This document shows, one piece after another, positions 11,860 to 23,107 of a stretch of DNA of 64,000 bases. The position numbers were made by a program, and so were the translations under genes. The notes under the pieces were generated by a model. The model was not told the DNA's origin. It was given only the letters and a program-made list of their open reading frames with translations, and did no database searches. Position 1 is the first letter of the stretch. Each line of letters begins with the position of its first letter. This stretch comes from Thermosinus carboxydivorans Nor1 (GTDB lineage: Bacteria > Bacillota > Negativicutes > Sporomusales > Thermosinaceae): positions 124,001 through 188,000 of the forward strand of contig NZ_AAWL01000003.1 in assembly GCF_000169155.1 (NCBI RefSeq). Direction: 5' to 3'.

Positions 11860-12339
11860 ATGAAAATTACGATTGTTGCCGTAGGCAAGATTAAAGAAAA
11901 ATACCTCACCGCCGGCATCGCCGAGTATACCAAACGGCTCGGCCCTTACTGCCGCCTGGAAATCGTCGAGGTGGACGAAGAACGTATGCCGGCCGACCCT
12001 TCGCCTGCGGAAAAGGAGAAGGTGTTGGCCCGTGAGGGCGAACGGCTGCTTAAGCACGTTCGCGACGGCAGCTATTTAATCGTCCTCGACGTCCGGGGCA
12101 AGGCCCTTTCCTCGGAAGAATTGGCGGAAAAAATCGACGCTCTGGCCCTAGCGGGCCAGAGCGATGTTACATTTGTCATCGGTGGCGCCTTTGGTCTCGC
12201 GCCGGCCGTTGTGGCGGCGGCCAATGAGCGGCTGAGCTTTTCCCGGATGACGTTTACCCATCAGATGATCCGGCTGATACTCGTCGAGCAGCTTTATCGG
12301 GCGTTTAAGATTAGCAGGGGAGAACCGTATCATTGGTAA
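11860..12339 (+). CDS. rlmH: 23S rRNA (pseudouridine-1915-N3) methyltransferase
   Basis: A 159-aa SPOUT methyltransferase that methylates pseudouridine 1915 of 23S rRNA. Seen: KITIVAVGKIKEKYL at the start, the SAM-binding knot motif VIGGAFGLAP, and the conserved C-terminus RGEPYHW. It starts 2 bp after htrA stops. Its last seven codons form the left copy of the 21-bp repeat flanking the downstream island, and integration has kept the reading frame and C-terminus intact. Its own terminator now lies 5 kb away at 17378. Confidence 0.96.
   Translation: MKITIVAVGKIKEKYLTAGIAEYTKRLGPYCRLEIVEVDEERMPADPSPAEKEKVLAREGERLLKHVRDGSYLIVLDVRGKALSSEELAEKIDALALAGQSDVTFVIGGAFGLAPAVVAAANERLSFSRMTFTHQMIRLILVEQLYRAFKISRGEPYHW
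12319..12339 (+). repeat. attL-like copy of the rlmH 3' end
   Basis: A 21-bp sequence (begins GGAGAACC, ends TTGGTAA) that codes for the last residues and stop of RlmH. The identical 21 bp occurs at 17345-17365. The bases on either side of the two copies differ, which defines the repeat limits. This is the position of the SCC attachment site in staphylococcal rlmH. Confidence 0.85.
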
Positions 12340-12398
12340 GGTGGATAGGCATCTCGGATGAGGATATGAGTATGGCCGCAGGAAGGATAAGAAAACCG

Positions 12399-12428
12399 TT
12401 GACTTAGTATAGATTCCGTTTCTATATA
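12399..12428 (+). promoter_or_regulatory. Possible promoter of the HD-domain gene
   Basis: TTGACT at 12399-12404 and TATATA at 12423-12428, 18-bp spacer, inside the AT-rich stretch just inside the island. The extreme AT content makes chance matches likely. Confidence 0.45.
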
Positions 12429-12487
12429 TGTTATTTATTATAAATTTTTAATTTTATAATATAGCTTTTAATTGTAGGGAGGTAACC

Positions 12488-12970
12488 ATGAACAAAATTT
12501 TATTAGTTCAATCCAAACTGCTTAATAAAATTAATCAATATAAACATATTGCCGAACGTGACTACCCGATCGAATGGGAAAAAATACATATGGCTAGCTG
12601 TGCCAAAATTGGCCTGCTTTTAGCGGCCAAGCGCAACATTGAGCCGGAAATGGCGGCGATAGCTTGCTCGCTGCATGACTACGGTCGGATCGTGACCGGC
12701 AAGCAAGCCTATCATGCGGTAAATGGCTATGAGCCAGTAAAAGAGTTTCTCGCGGAAATTGGGCTGTTTACCAATGACGAGATAGAAAAACTTGCGCAAG
12801 CAGTTAAAAACCACAGCAATAAGCATGTTGTTGGCACGCCGCTGGAGGAGATTGTCAAGGATGCGGATGTGCTTGATTGCTACCAATATGGCGACGAACT
12901 TGAGCGACCCGAACAGCGTGAACGTTTAAAAAAGGTTATAGCTGAGCTAGGGTATAGCGAACTGTCTTAG
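12488..12970 (+). CDS. HD-domain metal-dependent phosphohydrolase-like protein
   Basis: A 160-aa protein with an HD-domain layout: first His in KIHMASCAK (~residue 35), HD pair in SLHDYGR (~63), a later His in KNHSNKH and the Asp of VKDADVLDCYQYGD. Such small HD proteins act on nucleotides or phosphate esters; the substrate is unknown. The ATG follows AGGGAGGTAACC. It is the first gene inside the rlmH island and is more AT-rich than the genes to the left. Confidence 0.78.
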   Translation: MNKILLVQSKLLNKINQYKHIAERDYPIEWEKIHMASCAKIGLLLAAKRNIEPEMAAIACSLHDYGRIVTGKQAYHAVNGYEPVKEFLAEIGLFTNDEIEKLAQAVKNHSNKHVVGTPLEEIVKDADVLDCYQYGDELERPEQRERLKKVIAELGYSELS

Positions 12971-13200
12971 TGCCGGCTAAACTTACATAATGGTGACCAG
13001 CTGTGCGGATCTGGTATGAAAGCATTTGAACTTTTCGGTCAGTCAATAATGCTGGGCAAAACGGATGCTGCTGTGGCGTAGGATTTGAAAGCATGCCCCA
13101 AGCGCCTAATTATCTGGCGTTTGCGAATTTTAGACTCAAAAGAAGTTGTTAACGACTTCAGTATTTTCTAGTGAAGGTATGTAGAGGAGATTTGTGAATT

Positions 13201-13591
13201 ATGTCTGAGAAAAAATTAGTTTTTATGGCTTTGCAGGAGAATGTAGGGGTTTGTAAATTGGATGCCAGGGGGACGATTCCAATATGGGCATACCAAGGGG
13301 AGTTTTTTTTCAATCACTAAAACGGTGGATGAACTTTCCATTGTATGTCCAGAGGGTGTTGTACCCGAAAATGTATTATGTGAAAAAGGATGGAAGATAC
13401 TCAAAATTCAGGGGACACTAGATTTTGGACTGGTGGGTATATTAGCGATGGTCAGCACGGCACTTGCAAGAGCGGGCATAAGTATATTTGCAATTTCGAC
13501 TTATAATACTGACTATATCTTAGTTAAGGATAGGGATTTTAATAGCGCGGTAGATATACTTAGAAATGAAGGGCATGAAGTCTTATATTAA
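13201..13591 (+). CDS. ACT-domain protein (COG3603-like), frameshifted in a T run
   Basis: About 129 aa when corrected. ATG 13201 encodes MSEKKLVFMALQENVGVCKL and continues to PIWAYQGEFF; the frame breaks in a run of eight Ts (13303-13310). Removing one T joins SITKTVDELSIVCPE and the C-terminal ACT motif LVGILAMVSTALARAGISI (in parts GILAMVSTAL, ARAGISIF). Two ACT-like halves are typical of this small-ligand-binding family, which often binds amino acids. An amino-acid racemase gene follows 360 bp downstream. A homopolymer sequencing error is the simplest explanation for the break. Confidence 0.7.
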
Positions 13592-13953
13592 GGCTCGCAC
13601 AATGAGGGCAGTTTACTCAAAAGGTGGATATGTGAATAATTATAAGATATTATTCAATACTGATTCAGGCGATTTTCATTTAAAACATAAAATATCTGGA
13701 ATAAAACTTGGTAAGGGCGAAAAATGATGAACAAAATCCCTTTGGGGCAGGAAAACCAGCTTCAAAGGGGTCTTCTTTTGTAACAGAAATTATTAGGGCT
13801 TTAGGTCACTTTAAGTCAAGGGGGCAGGAAAAGAATGGTTAGCGTTGTATTATACAAAGTGGTAATTATTGGAATGGGAGATGGCTAATGGATTAGGTTA
13901 GTATAATCAAACAATATTTGAAACGATGCTAATATTTACTGGAGGTGTTTATA
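13592..13953 (+). other. Intergenic stretch with a hairpin; no convincing gene
   Basis: AT-rich. A 32-codon GTG frame at about 13633 has no recognisable family. A hairpin, ATCCCTTTG with CAAAGGGG around 13736-13773 and followed by TCTTCTTTT, may be a terminator. Nothing else seen. Confidence 0.4.
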
Positions 13954-14646
13954 ATGAAAAAACTCGGGCTGGTAGGCGGGATTGGCCCGGCATCGACGCT
14001 GGATTACTACAAAGGCATCACCGAGGGTTATCGGATGAGGACAGCTAGCGACAATTATCCGCAAATGATTATTGACAGCTTAAATCTTGCCGAAATGTAC
14101 GCTTATGTGTCCAACAAGCAATGGGATATGTTTATTAACCGGTTGGTCGGCTCAATAAAAAATTTAGCGGCCGGTGGGGCTGAGTTTGCGGCCATGGCGG
14201 CCAATACTGCTCATATCGTATTTGATGAAGTCAATAGCCAATCCCCTTTGCCCCTTATAAGCATCGTCGACGAAACGTGCAAATACGCACAATCAAAGAA
14301 TTGCAAAAGCGTTGTAATATTCGGCACGGCTTTCACGATGAGCAGCGGGCTATATTCAAATGCGTTTGCGAAATACGGGATTGATGCATTTGTCCCCACG
14401 GCAGATGAGCAAAAAGCGATCCATAATATTATTTTTCCGAATTTGCAAGCGGGCATCGTTTTACCAGAAGATAAAAGGACAATACTACAGATCGCGAAGC
14501 GAATGATAGCTGAGAAAAATGCAGATGCATTGGTTCTTGGCTGCACCGAACTGCCGCTTATAATACAGGAAAATGATTTGGACGTTTTGCTTTTGGACAC
14601 AACGCAGATCCATATTGATGCGATATTAAACTATATGCTTGCATAA
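13954..14646 (+). CDS. Aspartate/glutamate racemase family protein
   Basis: A 230-aa cofactor-independent racemase. The N-terminal signature is LGLVGGIGPASTLDYYKGI. Both catalytic thiol regions should be present: the first is AMAANTAHIVFD, where the usual Cys/Thr position reads ANTAH, and the second is ALVLGCTELPL with a clear cysteine. A Thr at the first site is typical of the YgeA-like broad-specificity branch. The ATG follows GGAGGTG. It probably supplies or consumes a D-amino acid; it is cargo of the rlmH island. Confidence 0.88.
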   Translation: MKKLGLVGGIGPASTLDYYKGITEGYRMRTASDNYPQMIIDSLNLAEMYAYVSNKQWDMFINRLVGSIKNLAAGGAEFAAMAANTAHIVFDEVNSQSPLPLISIVDETCKYAQSKNCKSVVIFGTAFTMSSGLYSNAFAKYGIDAFVPTADEQKAIHNIIFPNLQAGIVLPEDKRTILQIAKRMIAEKNADALVLGCTELPLIIQENDLDVLLLDTTQIHIDAILNYMLA

Positions 14647-14649
14647 AGG

Positions 14650-14883
14650 TAAAACGCTAAAGTTCCGATTTCTGATAGCTTTCAAACTCATGCCGCACAG
14701 GCATGCATCTTCAAGTAAACGTTGGAAAGCTTTAATATGGGTATTCATATTGGGTGTCTTGGTTGGTATGCGCTCATGTTCGATACTTAGAGCCGCACAC
14801 GCTTCTTCAAATGCGTGGTACGTAAATTGCGGTCCATTATCAGTCCGAACAACTGGACGCACATCCGTGTTAAGCCTGTGCAT
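14650..14883 (-). pseudogene. Remnant of an IS3-family transposase (integrase domain)
   Basis: An 80-codon open stretch with VRTDNGPQFTYHAFEEAC and HERIPTKTPNMN, the DD(E) integrase core pattern of IS3-family OrfB proteins. Both ends of the gene and the upstream OrfA are missing. Its 3' end overlaps the end of the racemase gene. It records past insertion in the island. Confidence 0.72.
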
Positions 14884-14948
14884 AGTATAATTGACTTAAT
14901 TGCAGATTTTGGGCCATAACTCTATACCGCTAGCAATACCCCTTCTTT

Positions 14949-14967
14949 CACAATGAATGTCATTGTG
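14949..14967. promoter_or_regulatory. 8-bp inverted repeat, operator-like
   Basis: CACAATGA and TCATTGTG are perfect arms around ATG, about 180 bp before the EamA gene. It could be a regulator site or a small RNA hairpin; no regulator gene in the island is an obvious partner. Confidence 0.4.
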
Positions 14968-15146
14968 GCGGTACTAGCTAAACTTATTGTCGGCAATTTG
15001 TGTGCTTTAATAAATTGTCGAACAAGAAACCTAAAATAAAGGAACAGGTACCAGGAATAGGACTATGTGAAGTCGAAAAGAAAACTGCATATTCCTGCAG
15101 AACAGGGTTTCAGCAGGCAAAATTAAAAATAATTAAAGGTGTAATT

Positions 15147-16019
15147 ATGAATGGGGCAATAGCGCTTCTATGTTTAATTTGGGGGCTTAATTGGGTGGTA
15201 ATGAAGCAGGCCAATCAGGTCTTCCCACCTGTGTTATTTACGACGTATCGTTTTATTTTAGGGTCGGGTGTATTGCTTATTGTGACCTATTTTAAGAAAA
15301 TACCTATTCCGCGGCGTGAGGATTGGAAGTGGGTTATTCTAGGCGGTATTCTGCAAACTGCATTTTTTAACACCGCCGTTCAAGTTGGGATGCAGTTTTT
15401 AAGTGCTGGATTTTCTTCGGTTTTATCTTACAGTATGCCCTTTTGGGTGGCAATAATGGCGCATTTTTTACTAGGCGAAAAATTGACCAGGCGGAAAATG
15501 ACTGGTGTCGCCATGGGCATGGTTGGACTGGTTGCATTATTAAACGTAAGTGGCGGCGGTGCCTGGTGGGCAATTGTTTTGACACTCACAGGTGCCGTTG
15601 CGTGGGCATTTTCGAGTATTCTTGTCAAACTAAAATTGCAGCACTGTGATATTTTGCAATATACAACCTGGCAGATGGTGGTAGGGGCTATTGTGCTGTC
15701 AATTTATTCAGCTTTATTTGGGCATGGTACTATACAGTGGGGTTGGTATGCGGTAGGTTGTCTGGTGTATAACGGCGTACTTGCCTCGGCGTTGGCTTAT
15801 TTCCTCTGGACGTATATTTTATCAAACACGGAGGCCGGGAAGGCGTCTATTTCGATGTTGATTATTCCAATTATTGGCGTACTGGCAGGAGTGATTTTTC
15901 TTAAAGAAACGCTATACTGGAATACCGTGGTGGGGATGGCGTTAATTCTAGGCGGCATTTGGCTTGTCAATGGCCATACGGCATCTCGTGAGATAGAGTC
16001 AATACAACAAGGTGATTAA
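15147..16019 (+). CDS. EamA (DMT) family exporter
   Basis: A 290-aa inner-membrane protein with about ten hydrophobic helices in two EamA repeats. The first helix has LCLIWGLNWVVMK, and the second repeat ends in LIIPIIGVLAGVIFLKE, a family hallmark. Family members export amino acids or metabolites. I chose ATG 15147 (AAAGGTGTAATT before it) because it gives the usual length; the frame is open to 15000. Beside a racemase it may export an amino acid, which is inference. Last intact gene before the internal att-like copy. Confidence 0.88.
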   Translation: MNGAIALLCLIWGLNWVVMKQANQVFPPVLFTTYRFILGSGVLLIVTYFKKIPIPRREDWKWVILGGILQTAFFNTAVQVGMQFLSAGFSSVLSYSMPFWVAIMAHFLLGEKLTRRKMTGVAMGMVGLVALLNVSGGGAWWAIVLTLTGAVAWAFSSILVKLKLQHCDILQYTTWQMVVGAIVLSIYSALFGHGTIQWGWYAVGCLVYNGVLASALAYFLWTYILSNTEAGKASISMLIIPIIGVLAGVIFLKETLYWNTVVGMALILGGIWLVNGHTASREIESIQQGD

Positions 16020-16068
16020 CCAAGATTAATTATTACATGTAGAGAAGGGGATATCGTATGCCAAAGTT

Positions 16069-16107
16069 ACCGTATCATTGGTAACGGCGAAAAATGGCCT
16101 CAACCCT
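16069..16107 (+). repeat. Internal att-like copy (39 bp)
   Basis: 39 bp identical to 17350-17388: the last part of the rlmH end (CCGTATCATTGGTAA) plus 24 bp of what follows it at the right junction, up to the first arm of the rlmH terminator. On its left side GTTACC and GGTAAC make a 6-bp inverted repeat across the core. The copy then runs into an IS256 remnant. It divides the island into a 3.7-kb and a 1.3-kb part. Confidence 0.85.
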
Positions 16108-16111
16108 GGTG

Positions 16112-16507
16112 GCATGATTTGATCGTATCTGATCATCACAGCGGGCTAGTCCGTGCTATTCGCCAGCACTTTCAAGGTGTAACCTGGCACCAGCGCCGAA
16201 AGCAATGGCTATATTAGAAAAAGGGTTTGATGATGCAATCGCTGTTTTGGCACTGCCGGGAAAATACCGCAAACGGTTGCGTACAGAGAGCGGTATTGAG
16301 CGTCTCAATAAAGAAATCCGGCGTCGTGAACGGGTTATTCGTATTTTTCCAAACAGAGCTTCCGCTCTGCGTCTGATTGGCGCTTTGCTGATGGAATTGA
16401 CGACAAATGGGCAAGCGGTAAAAAAATACTTAGATATGGCCGAATATTGGGATTGGCGTGAACGCCAGGCTCATGCAGCAGACAATAAAATTGTTAAAAT
16501 CTGTTAA
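16112..16507 (+). pseudogene. Remnant of an IS256-family (Mutator) transposase
   Basis: Two parts in different frames. First HDLIVSDHHSGLVRAIRQHF, the central DDE-region motif of IS256 transposases; then from 16205 the C-terminal part GKYRKRLRTESGIERLNKEI and RRRERVIRIFPNRASALRL. The segment between them and the N-terminal half are missing. It directly abuts the internal att-like copy. Confidence 0.85.
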
Positions 16508-16694
16508 ATGCTCTGTTTCTAACTGAGGATGAATTTTACACATAGATTAGGACTTGATCACTTAAAATTATGTTAACTCGACCGAGGATGTATGTCTTCT
16601 AAAAAAATCTTACAATGTCTTGACACTATCTGGTACGTGGTCAGCTGGGTTCGGCAAGGAATTTTTGTGATATAATAATTTTGAGGTGGTATGA
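16508..16694 (+). other. Short gap before the toxin-antitoxin pair
   Basis: AT-rich. TTGACA near 16619 and TATAAT near 16671 are too far apart to be a single standard promoter, though TGATATAATAATTT close to the antitoxin start gives a good -10. Otherwise nothing seen. Confidence 0.35.
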
Positions 16695-16892
16695 ATGAGT
16701 ACAGCCAAAAGCATTTTAATAAAATTGATTGACCAAATTCCAGAAAGTCAAATACCAGAAGTTATTGATTTCATTATGTTTTTAAAAAATAAATCGGATA
16801 AACAGGTATTTAAAGATTTAGTATGTGCAAGTGAAAGTAGCATAGGTTTCTGGGACAATGATATTGATGATGAGGTATGGAATAATGTATAA
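16695..16892 (+). CDS. Antitoxin of a MazF-type pair
   Basis: A 65-aa acidic protein: helical N-terminus SILIKLIDQIPESQIPEVIDF resembling DUF2281-type antitoxins, and a disordered acidic C-terminus (FWDNDIDDEVWNNV) of the kind that wraps a toxin. The ATG follows GAGGTGGTATGA. The toxin ATG lies inside its last codons (overlap 8 bp), the usual coupled arrangement. Part of the right segment of the rlmH island. Confidence 0.82.
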   Translation: MSTAKSILIKLIDQIPESQIPEVIDFIMFLKNKSDKQVFKDLVCASESSIGFWDNDIDDEVWNNV

Positions 16893-17217
16893 ACAGGGCG
16901 ATATCTTGTTAATTCCAATACCTTTCAGTGATTTGACTTCCAATAAAAAACGCCCTGTTCTCGTTTTATCTAATGATGATTATAATAGTAAAACAGAAGA
17001 TATAGTGGTTGCTGCTATTACTTCGAACCTGACAACAAAGGATTATATTGTAATGCTGTCCAGTAGTGACCTTGACGAGGGAACCTTAAAGGTGGATTCT
17101 TGCATAAGAGTGGATAAGATTTATACTTTATCCCAAAATATTGTAATTAGCAAGTTTGGCACCGTGAAAAAATATATTATAGATGCTGTAAAGAAAAGGC
17201 TCTACGAGTTAATATAA
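16885..17217 (+). CDS. MazF/PemK-family endoribonuclease toxin
   Basis: A 110-aa protein starting YKQGDILLIPIPFSDLTSNK, with KRPVLVLSND, then VAAITSN and SCIRVDKIYTLSQ, all standard MazF/PemK positions (Arg of the RP pair, Thr/Ser of the AAITSN loop). MazF toxins cut mRNA at short sequences. With the upstream antitoxin it could stabilise the island, as addiction modules often do on mobile elements. Confidence 0.9.
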   Translation: MYKQGDILLIPIPFSDLTSNKKRPVLVLSNDDYNSKTEDIVVAAITSNLTTKDYIVMLSSSDLDEGTLKVDSCIRVDKIYTLSQNIVISKFGTVKKYIIDAVKKRLYELI

Positions 17218-17249
17218 AATGACCTTGAATAATTTGACAGGATCGCAGT

Positions 17250-17284
17250 ATTATAGCTTCTTGAAAAAGAAGCTTATAATTTTT
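17250..17284 (+). terminator. Intrinsic terminator of the toxin-antitoxin operon
   Basis: TTATAGCTTCTT pairs with AAGAAGCTTATAA around a GAAA-type loop and ends in TTTTT. Confidence 0.85.
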
Positions 17285-17338
17285 GGTGGGAGAAGTTTAA
17301 ATTGAGATTGTGTACTCAAAATTGTTTTTGATAATGGG

Positions 17339-17388
17339 TGATACGGAGAACCGTATCATTGGTAACGGCGAAAAATGGCCTCAACCCT
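17339..17388 (+). repeat. attR-like copy at the right end of the island
   Basis: 17345-17365 repeats the 21 bp of the rlmH 3' end exactly; 17350-17388 repeats the internal copy. The element side adds TGATAC, so TGATACGG-AGAA-CCGTATCA (17339-17358) forms a perfect 8-bp inverted repeat across the junction. To the right lies sequence that would directly follow rlmH in an empty site. Confidence 0.85.
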
Positions 17389-17419
17389 TGTGTAACGTGG
17401 GGTTGAGGCTTTGTTTTTT
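17378..17419 (+). terminator. Displaced intrinsic terminator of rlmH
   Basis: GCCTCAACCC pairs with GGGTTGAGGC across a 12-nt loop, then TTTGTTTTTT. In an empty site it would lie 12 bp after the rlmH stop, so it is inferred to be the original walJ-htrA-rlmH terminator. Confidence 0.85.
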
Positions 17420-17632
17420 GTGCGTTCCTGGAGCTTGGGGTAGGGGTCTAGCCTGATTGCCCTGCAATTTTGCAAGTATGTATGAACAACAGTGATTTCT
17501 AGTTGATAGAGAACTGCCCGCATTGCCCTCAAAAAAAGATGCAAGGAGTATTGCATAAGACAAGGGGAGAGGTATAAAATATAAGTAATCATTTATATAA
17601 GCGTGAATTGATGCAGGAAGGAAGGTGACAAT
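17420..17632 (+). other. Gap before the ArsR gene, AT-rich possible operator
   Basis: No gene seen. TATAAAATATAAGTAATCATT near 17573-17593 (given in parts: TATAAAATATAAG, TAATCATTTATATAAG) resembles promoter/operator DNA of ArsR-type repressors and lies 40 bp before the gene. Confidence 0.4.
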
Positions 17633-17956
17633 ATAGAGAGCCTAGCCCGCTTATTCAAACTACTCGGTGATGCTAACCGACTGAAAATTCTCCTGGCGCT
17701 CGAAGAAGAACCGAAGTCAGTTTCACAGCTAATCGAGCAGACGGGATTGTCCCAACCGCTCGTGTCTTTCCACTTGAAGGCATTGCGGGAGGCGGGACTC
17801 GTAACTACGAGCAGGAAGGCAACCCTAGTGTTCAATAGCCTTGCGGATAGTGACTTGCCAAGGCTAATACGACAGTTTGAAAAATATAATGGCGGTAGTT
17901 CAGAAACGGAAGTGAACTTCCCGTTTCCGTGCCGCCCGCCATGGATGAAAGGATGA
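17633..17956 (+). CDS. ArsR-family metal/redox repressor, start disturbed
   Basis: About 108 aa: SLARLFKLLGDANRLKILLAL, then the recognition helix LSQPLVSFHLKALREAGLV, a standard ArsR winged helix. The C-terminus is Pro/Cys-containing (PFPCRPPWMKG). No ATG, GTG or TTG occurs in frame before 17747, inside the DNA-binding domain. The GTG at 17625 sits behind GGAAGGAAG but meets TAG at once; dropping the repeated TA at 17631-17634 would give a normal start, MTIESLARLF. So a 2-bp insertion or an ATA start at 17633 is inferred. The stop overlaps the next gene as ATGA. Confidence 0.75.
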   Translation: MESLARLFKLLGDANRLKILLALEEEPKSVSQLIEQTGLSQPLVSFHLKALREAGLVTTSRKATLVFNSLADSDLPRLIRQFEKYNGGSSETEVNFPFPCRPPWMKG

Positions 17957-18195
17957 TGTGTATGTGGTGGGGTCATCCAATGTGGGGCGGATGGGGTATG
18001 CCGCTCGGCATGTTCCTATTTTCCGTGTTTTTCTTGGTTTGCCTTGGGTTTATGTTTTACTTCTTCAGCCGAGGAGGCTTTCCGTTCGGCCATGGTCGCG
18101 ATCAAGTTCACAGCGATGTTACAAATAGAGAACTGCTCGAAGAGGTACGGAAACTACGTCAAGAAGTAGAAGAATTGAAGAAAGAGAAAAAGTAA
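17953..18195 (+). CDS. Small single-pass membrane protein with coiled-coil tail
   Basis: About 80 aa. A Trp/Met/Gly-rich start (MWWGHPMWGGWGM), one transmembrane helix (LGMFLFSVFFLVCLGFMFYF, residues ~22-42), then a charged heptad-like tail LLEEVRKLRQEVEELKKEKK. ATG 17953 overlaps the ArsR stop; ATG 17962 is an alternative. The Met and His at the N-terminus could bind copper or another soft metal, and the ArsR neighbour fits that. No named family recognised. Confidence 0.65.
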   Translation: MMCMWWGHPMWGGWGMPLGMFLFSVFFLVCLGFMFYFFSRGGFPFGHGRDQVHSDVTNRELLEEVRKLRQEVEELKKEKK

Positions 18196-18207
18196 GGAGG
18201 GGCTGAG

Positions 18208-18531
18208 ATGAAGGGAATGTCAGGGATGCCGCCCATGATGGGCATGATGGTGGAAAAAATGGGTGAGGGATTCAACCCTATGGAAATGTGCAAGAACATG
18301 ATGGAGGCTGTCAAGACTACTGCTCAAATGGCGGGTTACGCTACACCAGAAGTCATGGCTTTGTTTGAGGACTGGGTCAACCAGGTTGAGGGGGAAGTTC
18401 TGGAATTGATGCGGCAAAAAGGGCAGGTAAGCCCTGCTGAAATAGCCCAGGAGCTGAAGGTTAGCGAGGACACTGCTCTTTACTTTATCAGCAAATTGAT
18501 TCGGGACAAGATGGAAGTGCTTTGGAGGTAG
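18208..18531 (+). CDS. Met-rich N-terminus plus winged-helix-like protein
   Basis: A 107-aa protein. The first 35 residues contain 13 methionines (MSGMPPMMGMMVEKM). The C-terminal 45 residues, VSPAEIAQELKVSEDTALYF-ISKLIRDKM, look like a small winged helix. The ATG follows GGAGGGG, 12 bp after the membrane protein, so the ArsR gene and these two form one operon. A metal-sensing or metal-handling role is inference from methionine content and context. Confidence 0.65.
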   Translation: MKGMSGMPPMMGMMVEKMGEGFNPMEMCKNMMEAVKTTAQMAGYATPEVMALFEDWVNQVEGEVLELMRQKGQVSPAEIAQELKVSEDTALYFISKLIRDKMEVLWR

Positions 18532-18680
18532 GAAGAATGTGGCTGAAGATTTAGTTTGGGTAGGCAAATGCTGAGACAATTCGGACGTTGTCAAGGGTTG
18601 CTAACTGTAAATACATAGGTAAATTGCAATAGCCAATGCTACACCGGAAAAATAAACAGTACAGTCATTGAAAAAACGTA

Positions 18681-18708
18681 TTGCTTTTTTTCTATAATTT
18701 GGTATAAT
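18681..18708 (+). promoter_or_regulatory. Promoter of the rubrerythrin gene
   Basis: TTGCTT at 18681 and TATAAT at 18703 with a 16-bp spacer. The overlapping AT-rich stretch TATAATTATTTCATGATATT is PerR-box-like, but the match is loose. Confidence 0.5.
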
Positions 18709-18747
18709 TATTTCATGATATTAATTATCCATTGAGGAGGTATATTT

Positions 18748-19297
18748 ATGAAGAAGTTTGTGTGTACCATCTGTGGTTATGTTCACGAAGGCAATTCCGC
18801 TCCCGATGCTTGTCCGCAATGCAAAGCACCTGCCACCAAATTTGTTGAGCAAGCTACGACAGGTTTAAGCTGGGCTGACGAGCACAGAATTGGCGTAGCC
18901 GCGGGTGTAGACGCCGAGATAGTTGAAGGACTGAAGATGAACTTTATCGGTGAATGTACTGAGGTTGGTATGTATCTAGCAATGAGCCGCCAAGCTGACC
19001 GGGAAGGTTATCCAGAAGTAGCCGAAGCTTATAAGCGCATCGCCTTCGAAGAAGCTGAACACGCTGCGAAATTTGCCGAGTTGTTGGGCGAAGTAGTACA
19101 TCCTTCTACTAAGAAGAACCTTGAGCTCCGTGTAGAGGCTGAACGTGGCGCCTGTGAGGGTAAACTAGCAATTGCCAAAAAAAGCAAAACAGCTTGGCTT
19201 AGATGCTATTCATGACACTGTACATGAGATGTGCAAAGACGAAGCACGTCATGGGGCAGCTTTTAAGGGCTTATTGGAAAGGTATTTTAGCAAGTAA
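18748..19297 (+). CDS. Rubrerythrin-type protein, frameshifted in an A run
   Basis: About 182 aa when corrected. An N-terminal rubredoxin domain ([14 protein letters not shown] and CPQCKAP, four Cys) is followed by a ferritin-like di-iron region ([34 protein letters not shown]). The frame breaks in seven As at 19177-19183; removing one A gives [35 protein letters not shown], which supplies the last iron ligands ExxRH. Rubredoxin-first order is that of reverse rubrerythrins, NADH peroxidases that remove H2O2 in anaerobes. A sequencing error is likely. Confidence 0.85.
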
Positions 19298-19302
19298 TAC
19301 TC

Positions 19303-19342
19303 GAAAGACCTACAAGCCGATTAGTCGGCTAGTAGGTCTTTC
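19303..19342. terminator. Hairpin terminator after rubrerythrin
   Basis: AAAGACCTAC pairs with GTAGGTCTTT, with a second inner stem AGCCGA/TCGGCT. Followed by TTCTGC; works best on the plus strand. Confidence 0.8.
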
Positions 19343-19517
19343 TGCTATTTACCTTCCCAACTTTGACACTGGTTTTATGGTTCACATTACATTATAGCAG
19401 GTGACCGCAAAAGCTAAAGAGATTATGGCAAAATAGTTCACTACGTTTTTGAGCTTTTCCGGAACTTGACTCATGTCTACATTGGGTTTGTGGACCCTGC
19501 CCCCCTAAAATGGCGGT
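19343..19517 (+). other. Gap, nothing recognised
   Basis: No gene, hairpin or promoter supported between the rubrerythrin terminator and the M23 peptidase remnant. Confidence 0.4.
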
Positions 19518-20174
19518 TTACTGTCGAAGTCGGGATAGAACCAGAAATTTAATAGGATCTACAGCGGTGCCGTTGACTCTGACTTCGTAATGAACATGTG
19601 GGCCGGTACTTTTCCCAGTGCTGCCGGCGTAAGCAATCACTTGACCTTTTCTTACACTTTGACCAACGCTTACTGCTATTTGTGAATTGTGGCCATAAAT
19701 AGTCTCAATGCCGTTACCATGATTGATTTGCACTATATTGCCATAACCTCCAGACCATCCGCTCTTTACAACCTCACCATCAGCAGTCGCAACAACTGGT
19801 GTACCTATACTGGCAGCGATGTCGAATACCCGGATGAAATTCACTACCGTCCCCCCAAGGCGAATTGCGCCAGCCAAAACCGGGAGGTAACCGCTCCGCT
19901 AACCGGCCAAATGGAAGGAGTGGTTGCAAGCGTATTCGTATTTCTTGCCATTTTTTTTATTTTCTTGAGCTTGTCCACTTTCCTTCTGTTGGTTAAGTCT
20001 TAGTTCAGTCGTTGCAACAGCATTTGCACTAAGAGCCTGGTGATAATTTGCAAAAATCCCTACTGAAAATAGGATAAGTATAAACATCGGCAAAACAATC
20101 CATCGTGCAGTAAGCATTGGCTTCCGACTAATATCTACTTTCTGTTTATTATGCGCTTCGTGCGGAATAGGCAT
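19518..20174 (-). pseudogene. M23 peptidoglycan endopeptidase, several frameshifts
   Basis: Read piecewise, a ~220-aa envelope protein: N-terminal transmembrane anchor (WIVLPMFILILFSVGIFANY, residues ~25-45), linker, then a LytM/M23 domain. ATG 20174 follows GGGGGAG. Frames change near 19933, 19885, 19870 and 19848: ATTPSIWPVSGAVTSRF, then GWRNSPWGG, then GSEFHPGI, then DIAASIGTPVVATADGEVV. Zinc and catalytic residues survive in pieces: HPGID, IYGHNSQ and GPHVHYEVR. M23 enzymes cut peptide cross-links in peptidoglycan. Four indels within 90 bp argue for a decayed gene or a poor-quality patch of sequence. Confidence 0.78.
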
Positions 20175-20330
20175 CTAGTATCTCCCCCTTCAAAAGCCAG
20201 AGAAGCCTCAATATTCATCAATTATACCTTCCCATTTTCCAACTAATTTCGCACTGTGTCAACACTTGACGCAAAAAGTGAAAAGTGAGAACATAGTAAC
20301 GGCTAGTCTTGATTATTGGAGACGACAGAT

Positions 20331-21487
20331 ATGGGGAAAATGACTCAGCAATATCGTCCGGCGGCGATAATAATAACCGTATTTTTGCTCAGCGTGGCAC
20401 TAGTGCTGGCTGCCCGTTCCGACCTGTTTCCGTTTACCCTTTGGTTCCAGCACATCCCGCGCACTCCCGTTAATGTTACTGCGGTACCGATAGGTACCAT
20501 AAATAAGCCAATACGAATAGATCGGCCGGGGTTCATAGAAAACTCGACTTCCATCCCTTTACATACCGAATTTTCCGGTCGCGTTAGTGAAATATATGTA
20601 ACAGAAGGCCAGGCAGTCAAGGCAGGCCAGCCCCTGCTCAAGCTTCAGGGATCTTCCGGACCGTCCGGTGACAGTGGACCTTCAACAGCAACGGGAGAAA
20701 ACCAAAAAGCGGGAGTCTCTCAGCAAGTACAAGATAATTATGATAATGCACTAAAAGATGTTAAGCGCTATCAAAAATTATATGAACAAGGGGCTATTCC
20801 ACGACGACAATTGGAAGATGCCATGGTCCGCCTACAACAAGCACAAGCAAGCTTGAACAACGGCCAGAACGCTATGTCATCTACAAATACAAATGCCATT
20901 ACAACAACGCTCATGGTTCCGCCACGATAACGGCCCCAATTGATGGCATAGTGACGGGGCTGTCTATAGCTCCAGGGAAAACAGTGCAGGCCGGTCAACA
21001 ACTGATGGCATTGGGAAGTGGTCAAGAAATAGAGATTGTCGTTCATCTTGACCAAAATGATTTGTATCTGGTCGATTTGGGTACTACAGCTACAGCAGAA
21101 GTATCGAACCAAACCATAATGGGCCAGGTTTCCAGTATCTATCCTGAAGTTAAGGATGACAAAATTTCTTCCTTCTTGGCTCATATTAAACTCACGAATA
21201 ATCAGGATGATTTACTAAAACCTGGCATGCCCGTAAATGTTCGTATAGACACCGGCCAATCAGTAACAGTTCCCGCAGTTCCTACAGCATCAATATTCCA
21301 AGACGAGCAAGGGCGGAATTTTATATACGTAGTAGCCAATGGTACAGCTGTCCGCCAGCAGATAAGTATCGGCGAAACCATCGGTGATTTCACAGAAATC
21401 ACTTCTAATGTGCCTCAGGAAATTATGGTCATAACTAGTAACGTTAATGAAATAAAAAATGGTGATGCCATCGTAGTAATGCAATAA
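20331..21487 (+). CDS. RND/HlyD-type periplasmic adaptor, one frameshift
   Basis: About 385 aa. An N-terminal helix (IIITVFLLSVALVLAAR), then the barrel-sandwich half GFIENSTSIPLHTEFSGRVS and VTEGQAVKAGQPLLKL, a coiled-coil hairpin (NALKDVKRYQKLYEQGAIPR), and after the break ITAPIDGIVTGLSIAPGKTV and the beta-barrel. The frame changes near 20915 (LMVPPR versus NGSATITAP), one base. Adaptors of this type join an inner-membrane pump to an outer-membrane channel; neither partner is adjacent. ATG 20331 follows GGAGACGAC. Confidence 0.82.
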
Positions 21488-21535
21488 AAAGCTGCTCCGT
21501 GTTAGTGTTAAATTACTGTAGGATTTTGCAGGGAA

Positions 21536-21608
21536 AAAATAGAAGAAGACATCACTATCCCTTGGTGGGTTGAGTAATCAAAATAGATTACCCCCAGATG
21601 ATGTCTTC
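21536..21608. repeat. 21-bp repeat copy plus short inverted arms
   Basis: 21536-21556 (AAAATAGAAGAAG then ACATCACT) is identical to 35021-35041. Within the same stretch GAAGACATCA (21544-21553) has a perfect inverted partner TGATGTCTTC (21599-21608). Role unknown. Confidence 0.5.
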
Positions 21609-21740
21609 ATGAAATATTCGCTTTGCCCAATTTGTATAGCGGCAGAACGCAAAAGTTCCTACATTTCACGAGTAAGTTTCCATTCAGGTGCCGCCGTTAG
21701 AGGCGGGGTAAGTGAGTGCCATGGCGGTAGGCCGGATCAC

Positions 21741-22138: not shown

Positions 22139-22684
22139 TTATGGTTTGCAGATAATTTCCGCGATATAGGTATCGAAAATATTGGCCGCATGGGCCGGGC
22201 GTATGATCACGGCCGTGTCAGCGCCTTCGCCGGTGCCGCCAATGGCAATAATGTCTTCGCCGTATGGGATAAGTCCGGCGTCTAATGCCATGACGGCGAT
22301 TTCTACGCATACTTTGACGCCCTGGCCGAACATACGGAGCGTGTGGGCGATGATTTCGACGGGATAAATGCCGCCGAATTTGCGGCTGATGCCGCGCTCC
22401 GCGCCAGATAGGACATGTGTGGTCGTTAATAATTTTACGCCTTTTTCGGTGAGCCGTGCCCGCATTTCCGGGGTCATCTCATTGGCTCCAGGTTTTTCAA
22501 AGCCGTTGACATGGGTTACACACACCACATTTTCCACTTTTCCGGCAACCATTTCCGCCGTTTTTCCGCTGCAAGAGGCAACCACAATCGAGTTAATTTT
22601 GGCTTCTTTAGCTTTTTGTAAGGCTAACGCCACTGTGTTGGCCGTATGAACAGGCCCTGCAGATTTCCAATACATTTTTGTCAC
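22139..22684 (-). CDS. Pyruvate kinase alpha/beta (C-terminal) domain protein
   Basis: A 181-aa stand-alone protein like the C-terminal domain of pyruvate kinase: TANTVALALQKAKEAKINSIVV, SCSGKTAEMVAGK, the ATHVLSGAERGISRKFGG segment (as TTHVLSGAERGI), and a GIY-PVEIIAHTLRMFG region. No kinase active site is present, so it is not an enzyme of glycolysis. Function of this family (COG1751) is unknown. The ATG at 22684 follows a GAGGTG motif. Confidence 0.82.
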   Translation of the reverse strand: MTKMYWKSAGPVHTANTVALALQKAKEAKINSIVVASCSGKTAEMVAGKVENVVCVTHVNGFEKPGANEMTPEMRARLTEKGVKLLTTTHVLSGAERGISRKFGGIYPVEIIAHTLRMFGQGVKVCVEIAVMALDAGLIPYGEDIIAIGGTGEGADTAVIIRPAHAANIFDTYIAEIICKP

Positions 22685-22689
22685 CTCGA

Positions 22690-23107
22690 TTAATTTGTTG
22701 TTACAACAACTATACTAAGTTAATTATGCCAATAAATTGGCGCCACAGACAATGGGAATCAAAATCATTCCACCATTTTCGCTTACTACTTCGTATAAGA
22801 TAAAAAACCTGGAAGCTATTGACAAGCTTATTGAAAAAATGGATAATACTAGCAGAACCACCATATGAAATGGTTTTGCAGAACTGGCCTAGGAATAGGC
22901 TTGGGGATTGTTTTTGGAGCTGTATTAAGATTAACAATAGCCGCGAAGGTTATCTTCCAAACAAGAATGTTTGGGGATTACTTTCGCGGTGTTTTATTTT
23001 GAAAGGAGAGTTGCCGCGAAGTTTATTGCCAGCACGTCTATCGCATTCTGAATTGTAAATTTACTATCCGGTGGATTGCAAAATTAATTATTCCGGGAGG
23101 TTGACCG
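22690..23107 (+). other. Leader region of the TonB receptor with a possible 45-aa frame
   Basis: A frame at 22865-23002 encodes a 45-aa peptide with a Gly-rich hydrophobic helix (TGLGIGLGIVFGAVL), without a clear ribosome site. CCGCGAAG near 22950 and CTTTCGCGG near 22980 are partly complementary. No B12 box and no clear Fur box was found. AAAGGAGAG follows the small frame; the receptor has its own site CGGGAGG. Confidence 0.4.

Follow-up and report, generated by a model that had tools for sequence, protein, structure and literature searches.

Attachment-site copies behind rlmH in Thermosinus carboxydivorans as probable remnants of SCC-type cassettes

The rlmH gene and its attachment-site copies

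The DNA analysed here (the window, 64,000 nucleotides) belongs to Thermosinus carboxydivorans Nor1, whose genome comprises 2,889,774 bp in 49 contigs, and the region of interest begins at rlmH (11860-12339, forward strand), which encodes a SPOUT methyltransferase (Pfam PF02590, E=1e-59) with a 95% identical protein in the congener. The end of this gene is repeated further downstream, and the repeats look like the attachment (att) sites of rlmH-targeting mobile DNA of the staphylococcal cassette chromosome (SCC) type. The original prediction had placed a single SCC-like island of 5 kb here, bounded by 12319 and 17365. Comparisons were carried out against 380 Negativicutes genomes. In what follows, G-numbers denote genomes (G001 being the congener), C-numbers contigs and L-numbers fetched loci; the rlmH of one relative from the same order was identical to that of Lucifera (now Allolucifera) butyrica, of the class Negativicutes.

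The final 21 bp of rlmH (12319-12339) recur exactly at 17345-17365, as had been predicted, and elsewhere on the same strand of the 64-kb window nothing matches the rlmH tail over 22 bp or more. The attachment site of the chromosome (attB/attL, 12319-12349, forward strand), located at the 3' end of the gene, consists of GGAGAACCGTATCATTGGTAA followed by GGTGGATAGG. The internal 39-bp copy of the original prediction proved to be an exact run within a 43-nt match of 98% identity (16069-16111 against 17350-17392), and the corresponding feature (16064-16107, forward strand) combines an att copy with the left arm of a type-1 terminator (described below), interrupted by debris of an IS256-family insertion sequence (IS). 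A worn copy that the prediction had missed, carrying the degenerate right half TTGGTAAGGGCGAAAAATG, lies at 13708-13726 (19 nt, forward strand; 18 of 19 positions match the other two copies), in the place where the congener has an 8.7-kb kdp-operon segment. The right-hand copy is part of a palindromic site of attR type (17327-17375, forward strand) with the core TGATACGG-AGAA-CCGTATCA, which includes the exact 21-bp repeat, fits the consensus given below at 34 of 44 positions and matches the 23-nt attR pattern exactly (at 17340). All att copies of the window share one orientation. Two traits by which SCC elements are recognised, insertion at the rlmH 3' end with direct repeats and a palindromic attR site, were found in the region, the outer limits of which are uncertain. 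Both the intact RlmH reading frame (159 aa) and the AT-rich character of the insert were borne out, the GC content being 55.6% upstream of the repeats, 37-43% in 12340-17344 and 48% downstream.

Gene content and comparison with the congener

Upstream of rlmH, 11.6 kb of backbone align with the congener at 90.6% identity, and the alignment stops at 12341, two bases past the rlmH stop codon. Directly behind the congener rlmH stands a set-1 terminator (defined below) like the one at 17366 onwards in the window, followed by ~280 bp and then by 60 bp matching the left-junction sequence of the window (12340-12399, forward strand) at 98%; this match lies ~340 bp downstream of the congener rlmH stop and adjoins apparent IS sequence and a contig end. 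On a second congener contig, window positions 12476-13399 are found at 97.6% identity, followed by the kdp-operon segment and then by 13735-14666 at 96.8%. These blocks hold, all on the forward strand, a gene for an HD-domain protein (12488-12970, Pfam PF01966), an apparently frameshifted ACT-domain gene (13201-13591, recognised from its sequence and as Pfam ACT_7, with the conserved part open only from 13262) and an Asp/Glu racemase family gene (13957-14646). In the congener the racemase block is followed by the open reading frame (ORF) that stands at 22139-22684 (reverse strand) in the window, termed pyruvate-kinase-like from its sequence only, where the congener backbone resumes (89.6% over 22140-22693). 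DNA identity to the congener was 99.2% for the HD gene, 97.1% for the racemase gene, 91.4% for rlmH and 88.8% for the ORF at 22 kb, and the corresponding third-position identities were 98.8%, 94%, 82% and 78%. Since the blocks are 97-98% identical, an unusually high similarity against 90-91% in the flanking backbone, the HD/ACT and racemase blocks were probably exchanged between the two species after their split. Relatives of the HD protein (52-56% identity) are encoded just downstream of rlmH in two other Bacillota genomes (L165:11435-11893 and L180:7085-7552), and pieces 84-87% identical to the racemase gene occur in G009, a genome of another family, one of them ~0.5 kb from an att copy.

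Further to the right lie an rve-type transposase relic (14626-14883, reverse strand), of which 14669-14868 recurs elsewhere in the genome at up to 95%, and, on the forward strand, an EamA-type transporter gene (15147-16019), the C-terminal relic of an IS256-family transposase (16205-16507) and a toxin-antitoxin pair (16695-17217; Pfam PF10047 and PF02452) composed of a DUF2281/VapB-like antitoxin (16695-16892) and a PemK/MazF-type toxin (16885-17217), in agreement with the IS debris and MazF-type pair of the original prediction. A type-1 terminator (17366-17418, forward strand), of the type that stands after attL in elements bearing ccr recombinase genes, separates the pair from the remaining variable region (17419-21631, forward strand), which contains an ArsR-type regulator, small ORFs, a rubrerythrin gene and, named from their sequence alone, M23-peptidase-like and HlyD-like genes. 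In G015, a member of another family, a stretch ~93 kb downstream of rlmH matches 15041-16028, with the EamA gene, at 95% identity, and a stretch ~53 kb downstream of the same rlmH, which starts ~580 bp from a palindromic att site, matches 19535-21487 at 93%. On the comparisons with the congener and G015, variable DNA is taken to extend from 12340 to ~21.6 kb.

A domain search found no recombinase gene in the region, which thus lacks the ccr gene(s) expected within an SCC element, and a Padloc search of the island cargo gave no match. The ORF at 18208-18531, beside the ArsR-type regulator, matches the end of the NCBIfam model TsoA ('LULAXC motif selenoprotein') with 80.6 bits, below the cut-off of 170. 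Short repeats at 16561-16630 and 21499-21612 occur in many copies (75-93%) in the window genome, the congener and G015 and are probably IS ends.

Attachment sites, terminators and recombinases in the Negativicutes

The rlmH 3'-end motif was found in many copies downstream of rlmH in relatives, mostly oriented as rlmH. Because copies outside rlmH share an additional left arm, the full site is a palindrome of ~50 bp with the consensus TTCGCCGTTA.ACCTGATACGGAGAACCGTATCATTGGTAACGGCGAAAA (52 sites, gathered by a pattern that allowed up to 6 mismatches and favours its own letters). The C of TATC, reported to be the essential base of SCC att sites (PMC6222049), was present in 52/52 palindromic and 39/39 rlmH sites compared. 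For the enterococcal cassette chromosome, attR has been described as containing inverted repeats (PMC6222049). With up to two mismatches, the 23-nt palindrome core gave 74 matches in 33 of the 380 genomes, and a reversed control pattern gave none in the same set. Clusters of palindromic sites were also seen far from rlmH (87 kb) in G031 (C1:740074-815776 and 2430638-2452013; L226-L232), where several att sites are followed by terminators and one is preceded by an rlmH 3'-end relic. G009 carries six palindromic or palindrome-like copies in one orientation, within 54 kb downstream of rlmH (C27:64568-118432; L062, L224, L225). No Ccr-like protein was found in either genome at E<=1e-60. Detached rlmH 3'-end fragments of 30-46 codons occur in four genomes (G018 C1:49763-49900, G003 C82:75729-75842, G015 C1:3715198-3715287 and G007 C1:2471735-2471833); three lie downstream of the intact gene, the fourth at a distance of 1.9 Mb, and some end in an att site.

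The flanks behind att sites fall into two sets without cross-match. Set 1 (type 1) consists of a hairpin, TGGCCTCAACC..GGGTTGAGGCC, with a T-run, often followed by CCTGATTGCCCT; it stands behind rlmH in the ccr-bearing genomes G007, G023 and G123 and in G001, G008, G015, G025 and G035, as well as behind the 17345 and 16064 sites of the window. In G007 and G123, attR is followed by set 2 (type 2), which also follows rlmH in G027, G022 and G011. Read most simply, set 1 represents the cassette left end and set 2 the chromosomal right flank, in which case the window and the congener both lack an empty site; none was seen within the genus. A simple terminator lay within 75 nt of 33/52 palindromic and 23/39 rlmH sites, compared with 18% of random stretches from the same loci. 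A conserved motif, CCTGATTGCCCTGCAA, is present ~90 bp behind the rlmH stop or att site in G007, G008, G015, G025 and G035 and at 17450-17475 in the window.

The original prediction had regarded the terminator at 17366 onwards as the neighbour of rlmH in an empty site. A like terminator does stand directly behind rlmH in the congener, but the type follows attL, not attR, in two intact elements, and 17366-17418 is therefore probably a displaced cassette left end. For the same reason the congener was dropped as a clean empty site, its rlmH terminator being of the type behind attL of ccr elements. The hairpin following 13708 was likewise dropped as a cassette terminator, as the congener shows it to be the terminator that follows the kdp operon.

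A CcrB-like large serine recombinase was identified in 7 of the 380 genomes (search at E<=1e-60), always in a tandem pair with a CcrA-like protein. The pair lies ~7-12 kb downstream of rlmH in all six genomes with flanking sequence (G007, G023, G054, G065, G111 and G123); in the seventh, G108, the contig is too short to place it relative to rlmH. The second recombinase of the pair, first found in G007 and G023, reached 394 bits with the NCBIfam CcrB model. With the better of the NCBIfam models CcrB and CcrC, the B-like proteins scored 325-428 bits; the A-like proteins scored 218-233 bits against CcrB, compared with 117-173 bits for five large serine recombinases from elsewhere, including the window genome's own. 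All Negativicutes scores fall below the SCCmec-specific cut-off of 700-900, so that these proteins are relatives of the staphylococcal Ccr proteins rather than members. In the tree, both Negativicutes proteins, staphylococcal CcrB and the rlmH-near recombinases of Peptoclostridium and Pontibacillus formed one group (97/96), which also took in a Paenibacillus protein whose gene is not known to lie at rlmH; seven controls fell outside, and staphylococcal CcrA, on a very long branch, was not placeable. Comparison with solved structures returned general serine integrase relatives only.

Gene content was examined for two of the elements. In G123, a DUF927 protein with the Cch helix-turn-helix (HTH_56) stands ahead of the pair and DUF1643 behind, the same core order as in an annotated staphylococcal SCC record (DUF927, two recombinases, two small genes, DUF1643); the G007 element has DUF1643, RadC and a Prim-Pol protein, with no recognised Cch. 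The bounding sites, attL at rlmH and a palindromic attR, are 29.2 kb apart in G007 and ~21 kb apart in G123, and the G007 attR flank matches the rlmH flank of G027 as expected of an empty site, at 83% over 53 bp, a short match. On these sites and this gene order, SCC-type cassettes exist in the Negativicutes.

Interpretation and relation to known systems

Given that SCC-type cassettes exist in the class, the window most likely holds ccr-less debris of such cassettes. More specifically, the DNA from 12340 to ~21.6 kb is, with reasonable probability, a decayed composite array. In the course of events that we infer, a CcrAB-like pair, encoded by cassettes in relatives and in the window genome either lost or never present, would join the rlmH 3'-end site (attB) to the palindromic site on a circular cassette. 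Restoration of the last rlmH codons by the shared sequence would keep RlmH intact, and a new terminator, brought by the cassette left end, would then stand immediately past the stop codon. With every further insertion at rlmH, the previous left end would be shifted to the right together with its terminator and att site, and successive displacement of this kind could have produced the copies at 13708, 16064 and 17345. The cargo may afterwards have been reshuffled by IS elements and by exchange with other genomes, and the array would now be mobile only if Ccr proteins were provided from elsewhere. A wider and more tentative proposal, which we hold to be possible but doubtful, is that the Negativicutes harbour an old, separate SCC branch in which cassettes without ccr, each with an rlmH terminator of its own, accumulate in arrays both at rlmH and at secondary loci far away and depend for mobilisation in trans on CcrAB pairs that only ~2% of genomes carry, an integron-like economy based on large serine recombinases.

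Several observations weigh against a decayed array. The absence of ccr from the region, noted in the original prediction, extends to the whole genome, in which no Ccr-like protein was found at E<=1e-60. The genome-wide recombinase search proposed there did yield one large serine recombinase above the Pfam threshold (contig C9, 477 aa), which was rejected as a mobiliser since it falls outside the Ccr clade by tree and CcrB scores. The palindrome at 17345 has kept its left arm over 8 bp only, and the sites at 16064 and 13708 retain the right half only. HD-ACT-racemase stands to the right of the type-1 terminator in the congener and to its left in the window, so that simple stacking requires a different insertion order in each species; the congener order is itself inferred across a contig break (C20/C3). 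Finally, AAAGTTCC is common to ~14661 and ~21647, which leaves room for an IS-type insertion of the 14.7-21.6 kb block.

That last observation belongs to the main competitor, according to which HD-ACT-racemase is genus backbone exchanged by homologous recombination, and the att copies at 16-17 kb arrived in an IS-borne 7-kb block (14.67-21.63 kb) from the rlmH region of another genome, with no Ccr event at this rlmH. It would account for the racemase adjoining the pyruvate-kinase-like ORF in the congener, for IS relics or dispersed repeats at both sides and for two modules 93-95% identical to G015, and the high HD and racemase identity alone does not separate it from the favoured array. The congener homology breaks, however, at the rlmH att site (12341), and the worn att copy is located where the kdp segment is present or absent, and we consider this explanation unlikely. 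A single 5-kb SCC-like cassette (12340-17344), inserted by Ccr between rlmH and a native terminator at 17366 onwards, appears less probable still. The exact 21-bp repeats at both ends, the matching terminator right behind the congener rlmH and the sharp GC drop at 12340 are in its favour, but two further att copies lie inside, most of the left 2.3 kb (12340-14666) is also in the congener, with the kdp segment in its middle, the DNA past 17419 is variable too, and the terminator is of the set that follows attL rather than attR of intact elements. The span 12340-17419 therefore corresponds neither to one insertion nor to the whole variable region, and of the predicted SCC-like island the single element was not supported, while its SCC-like character was: the repeats match SCC-type att sites, and relatives of the same class combine CcrAB-like, Cch-type and DUF1643 genes with palindromic attR sites. 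In keeping with this, the block at 12.3-17.3 kb is not conserved in all relatives, and those relatives that have a second copy of the repeat also have DNA between the copies.

Islands that encode tyrosine integrases often use gene 3' ends, and some relatives carry longer rlmH 3' fragments, as might be expected of such an island at rlmH; a motif scan of the fetched rlmH-downstream stretches revealed no convincing tyrosine recombinase, however, and among the PF00589 matches listed none lay in these stretches. We regard this as the least credible of the explanations considered. It is also highly improbable that the palindrome is a dispersed repeat, of repetitive extragenic palindrome or miniature inverted-repeat transposable element type, that resembles the rlmH end and has no connection with a recombinase. 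Copies distant from rlmH do occur in G031, G024 and G027, and G009 has copies on a different contig, but the 3' coding end of rlmH makes up half of the palindrome, rlmH and palindromes of this kind delimit the ccr-bearing elements of G007 and G123, most copies near rlmH share its orientation, and inverted repeats in attR are, as cited above, a described cassette-chromosome trait.

With SCC itself, the system shares insertion at the rlmH 3' end with RlmH intact, att repeats whose core is TATC, the occurrence of composite arrays and of pseudo-elements that lack ccr, both known in SCC, and, in the ccr-bearing relatives, the staphylococcal order DUF927/Cch - CcrA-like - CcrB-like - DUF1643. It differs in its Negativicutes host, in the absence of ccr and cch from the window, in the att sequence (GTATCAYTGGTAAYGG as opposed to TATCATAA) and in the CcrA-like protein, which scores best against CcrB and is at most a possible orthologue of CcrA. 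As the window does not contain ccr, it is called a remnant and not an SCC. The Enterococcus cassette chromosome (PMC6222049) resembles the Negativicutes elements in its rlmH site, ccrAB-like pair, att site of ~50 bp with inverted repeats in attR, multiple attR sites and highly variable cargo; it belongs to another bacterial class, has fewer than 5 att copies per genome compared with 7-9 palindromic copies, some far from rlmH, in single Negativicutes genomes, and the window element is without recombinases. The rlmH-inserted PolA-SSB islands of Bacillota (PMC10061031) are mostly located downstream of rlmH, have ends matching its last ~12 bp, mostly use large serine recombinases and include composites. 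No Negativicutes appeared among the entries of Table 1 examined in that source; G007 has a Prim-Pol domain protein. Staphylococci, macrococci and enterococci are known hosts of cassette chromosomes at rlmH, as are other Bacilli, in which PolA-SSB primases accompany them (PMC6222049, PMC10061031). A literature search, from which subscription journals and preprints were mostly absent, returned no paper linking Negativicutes with a cassette chromosome or Sporomusa with rlmH. The intact Negativicutes elements are new, within this already known kind.

SCC-type cassettes are the vehicle of methicillin resistance in staphylococci. Negativicutes are for the most part environmental anaerobes and have an outer membrane; the presence in them of the same site, together with a CcrAB-like pair, Cch and DUF1643, extends the family's host range and provides outgroups for its origin. 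The many ccr-less att arrays make the movement in trans of cassettes that lack a recombinase testable, and the conserved terminators that follow att sites hint at how the end of rlmH transcription may be retained after each insertion.

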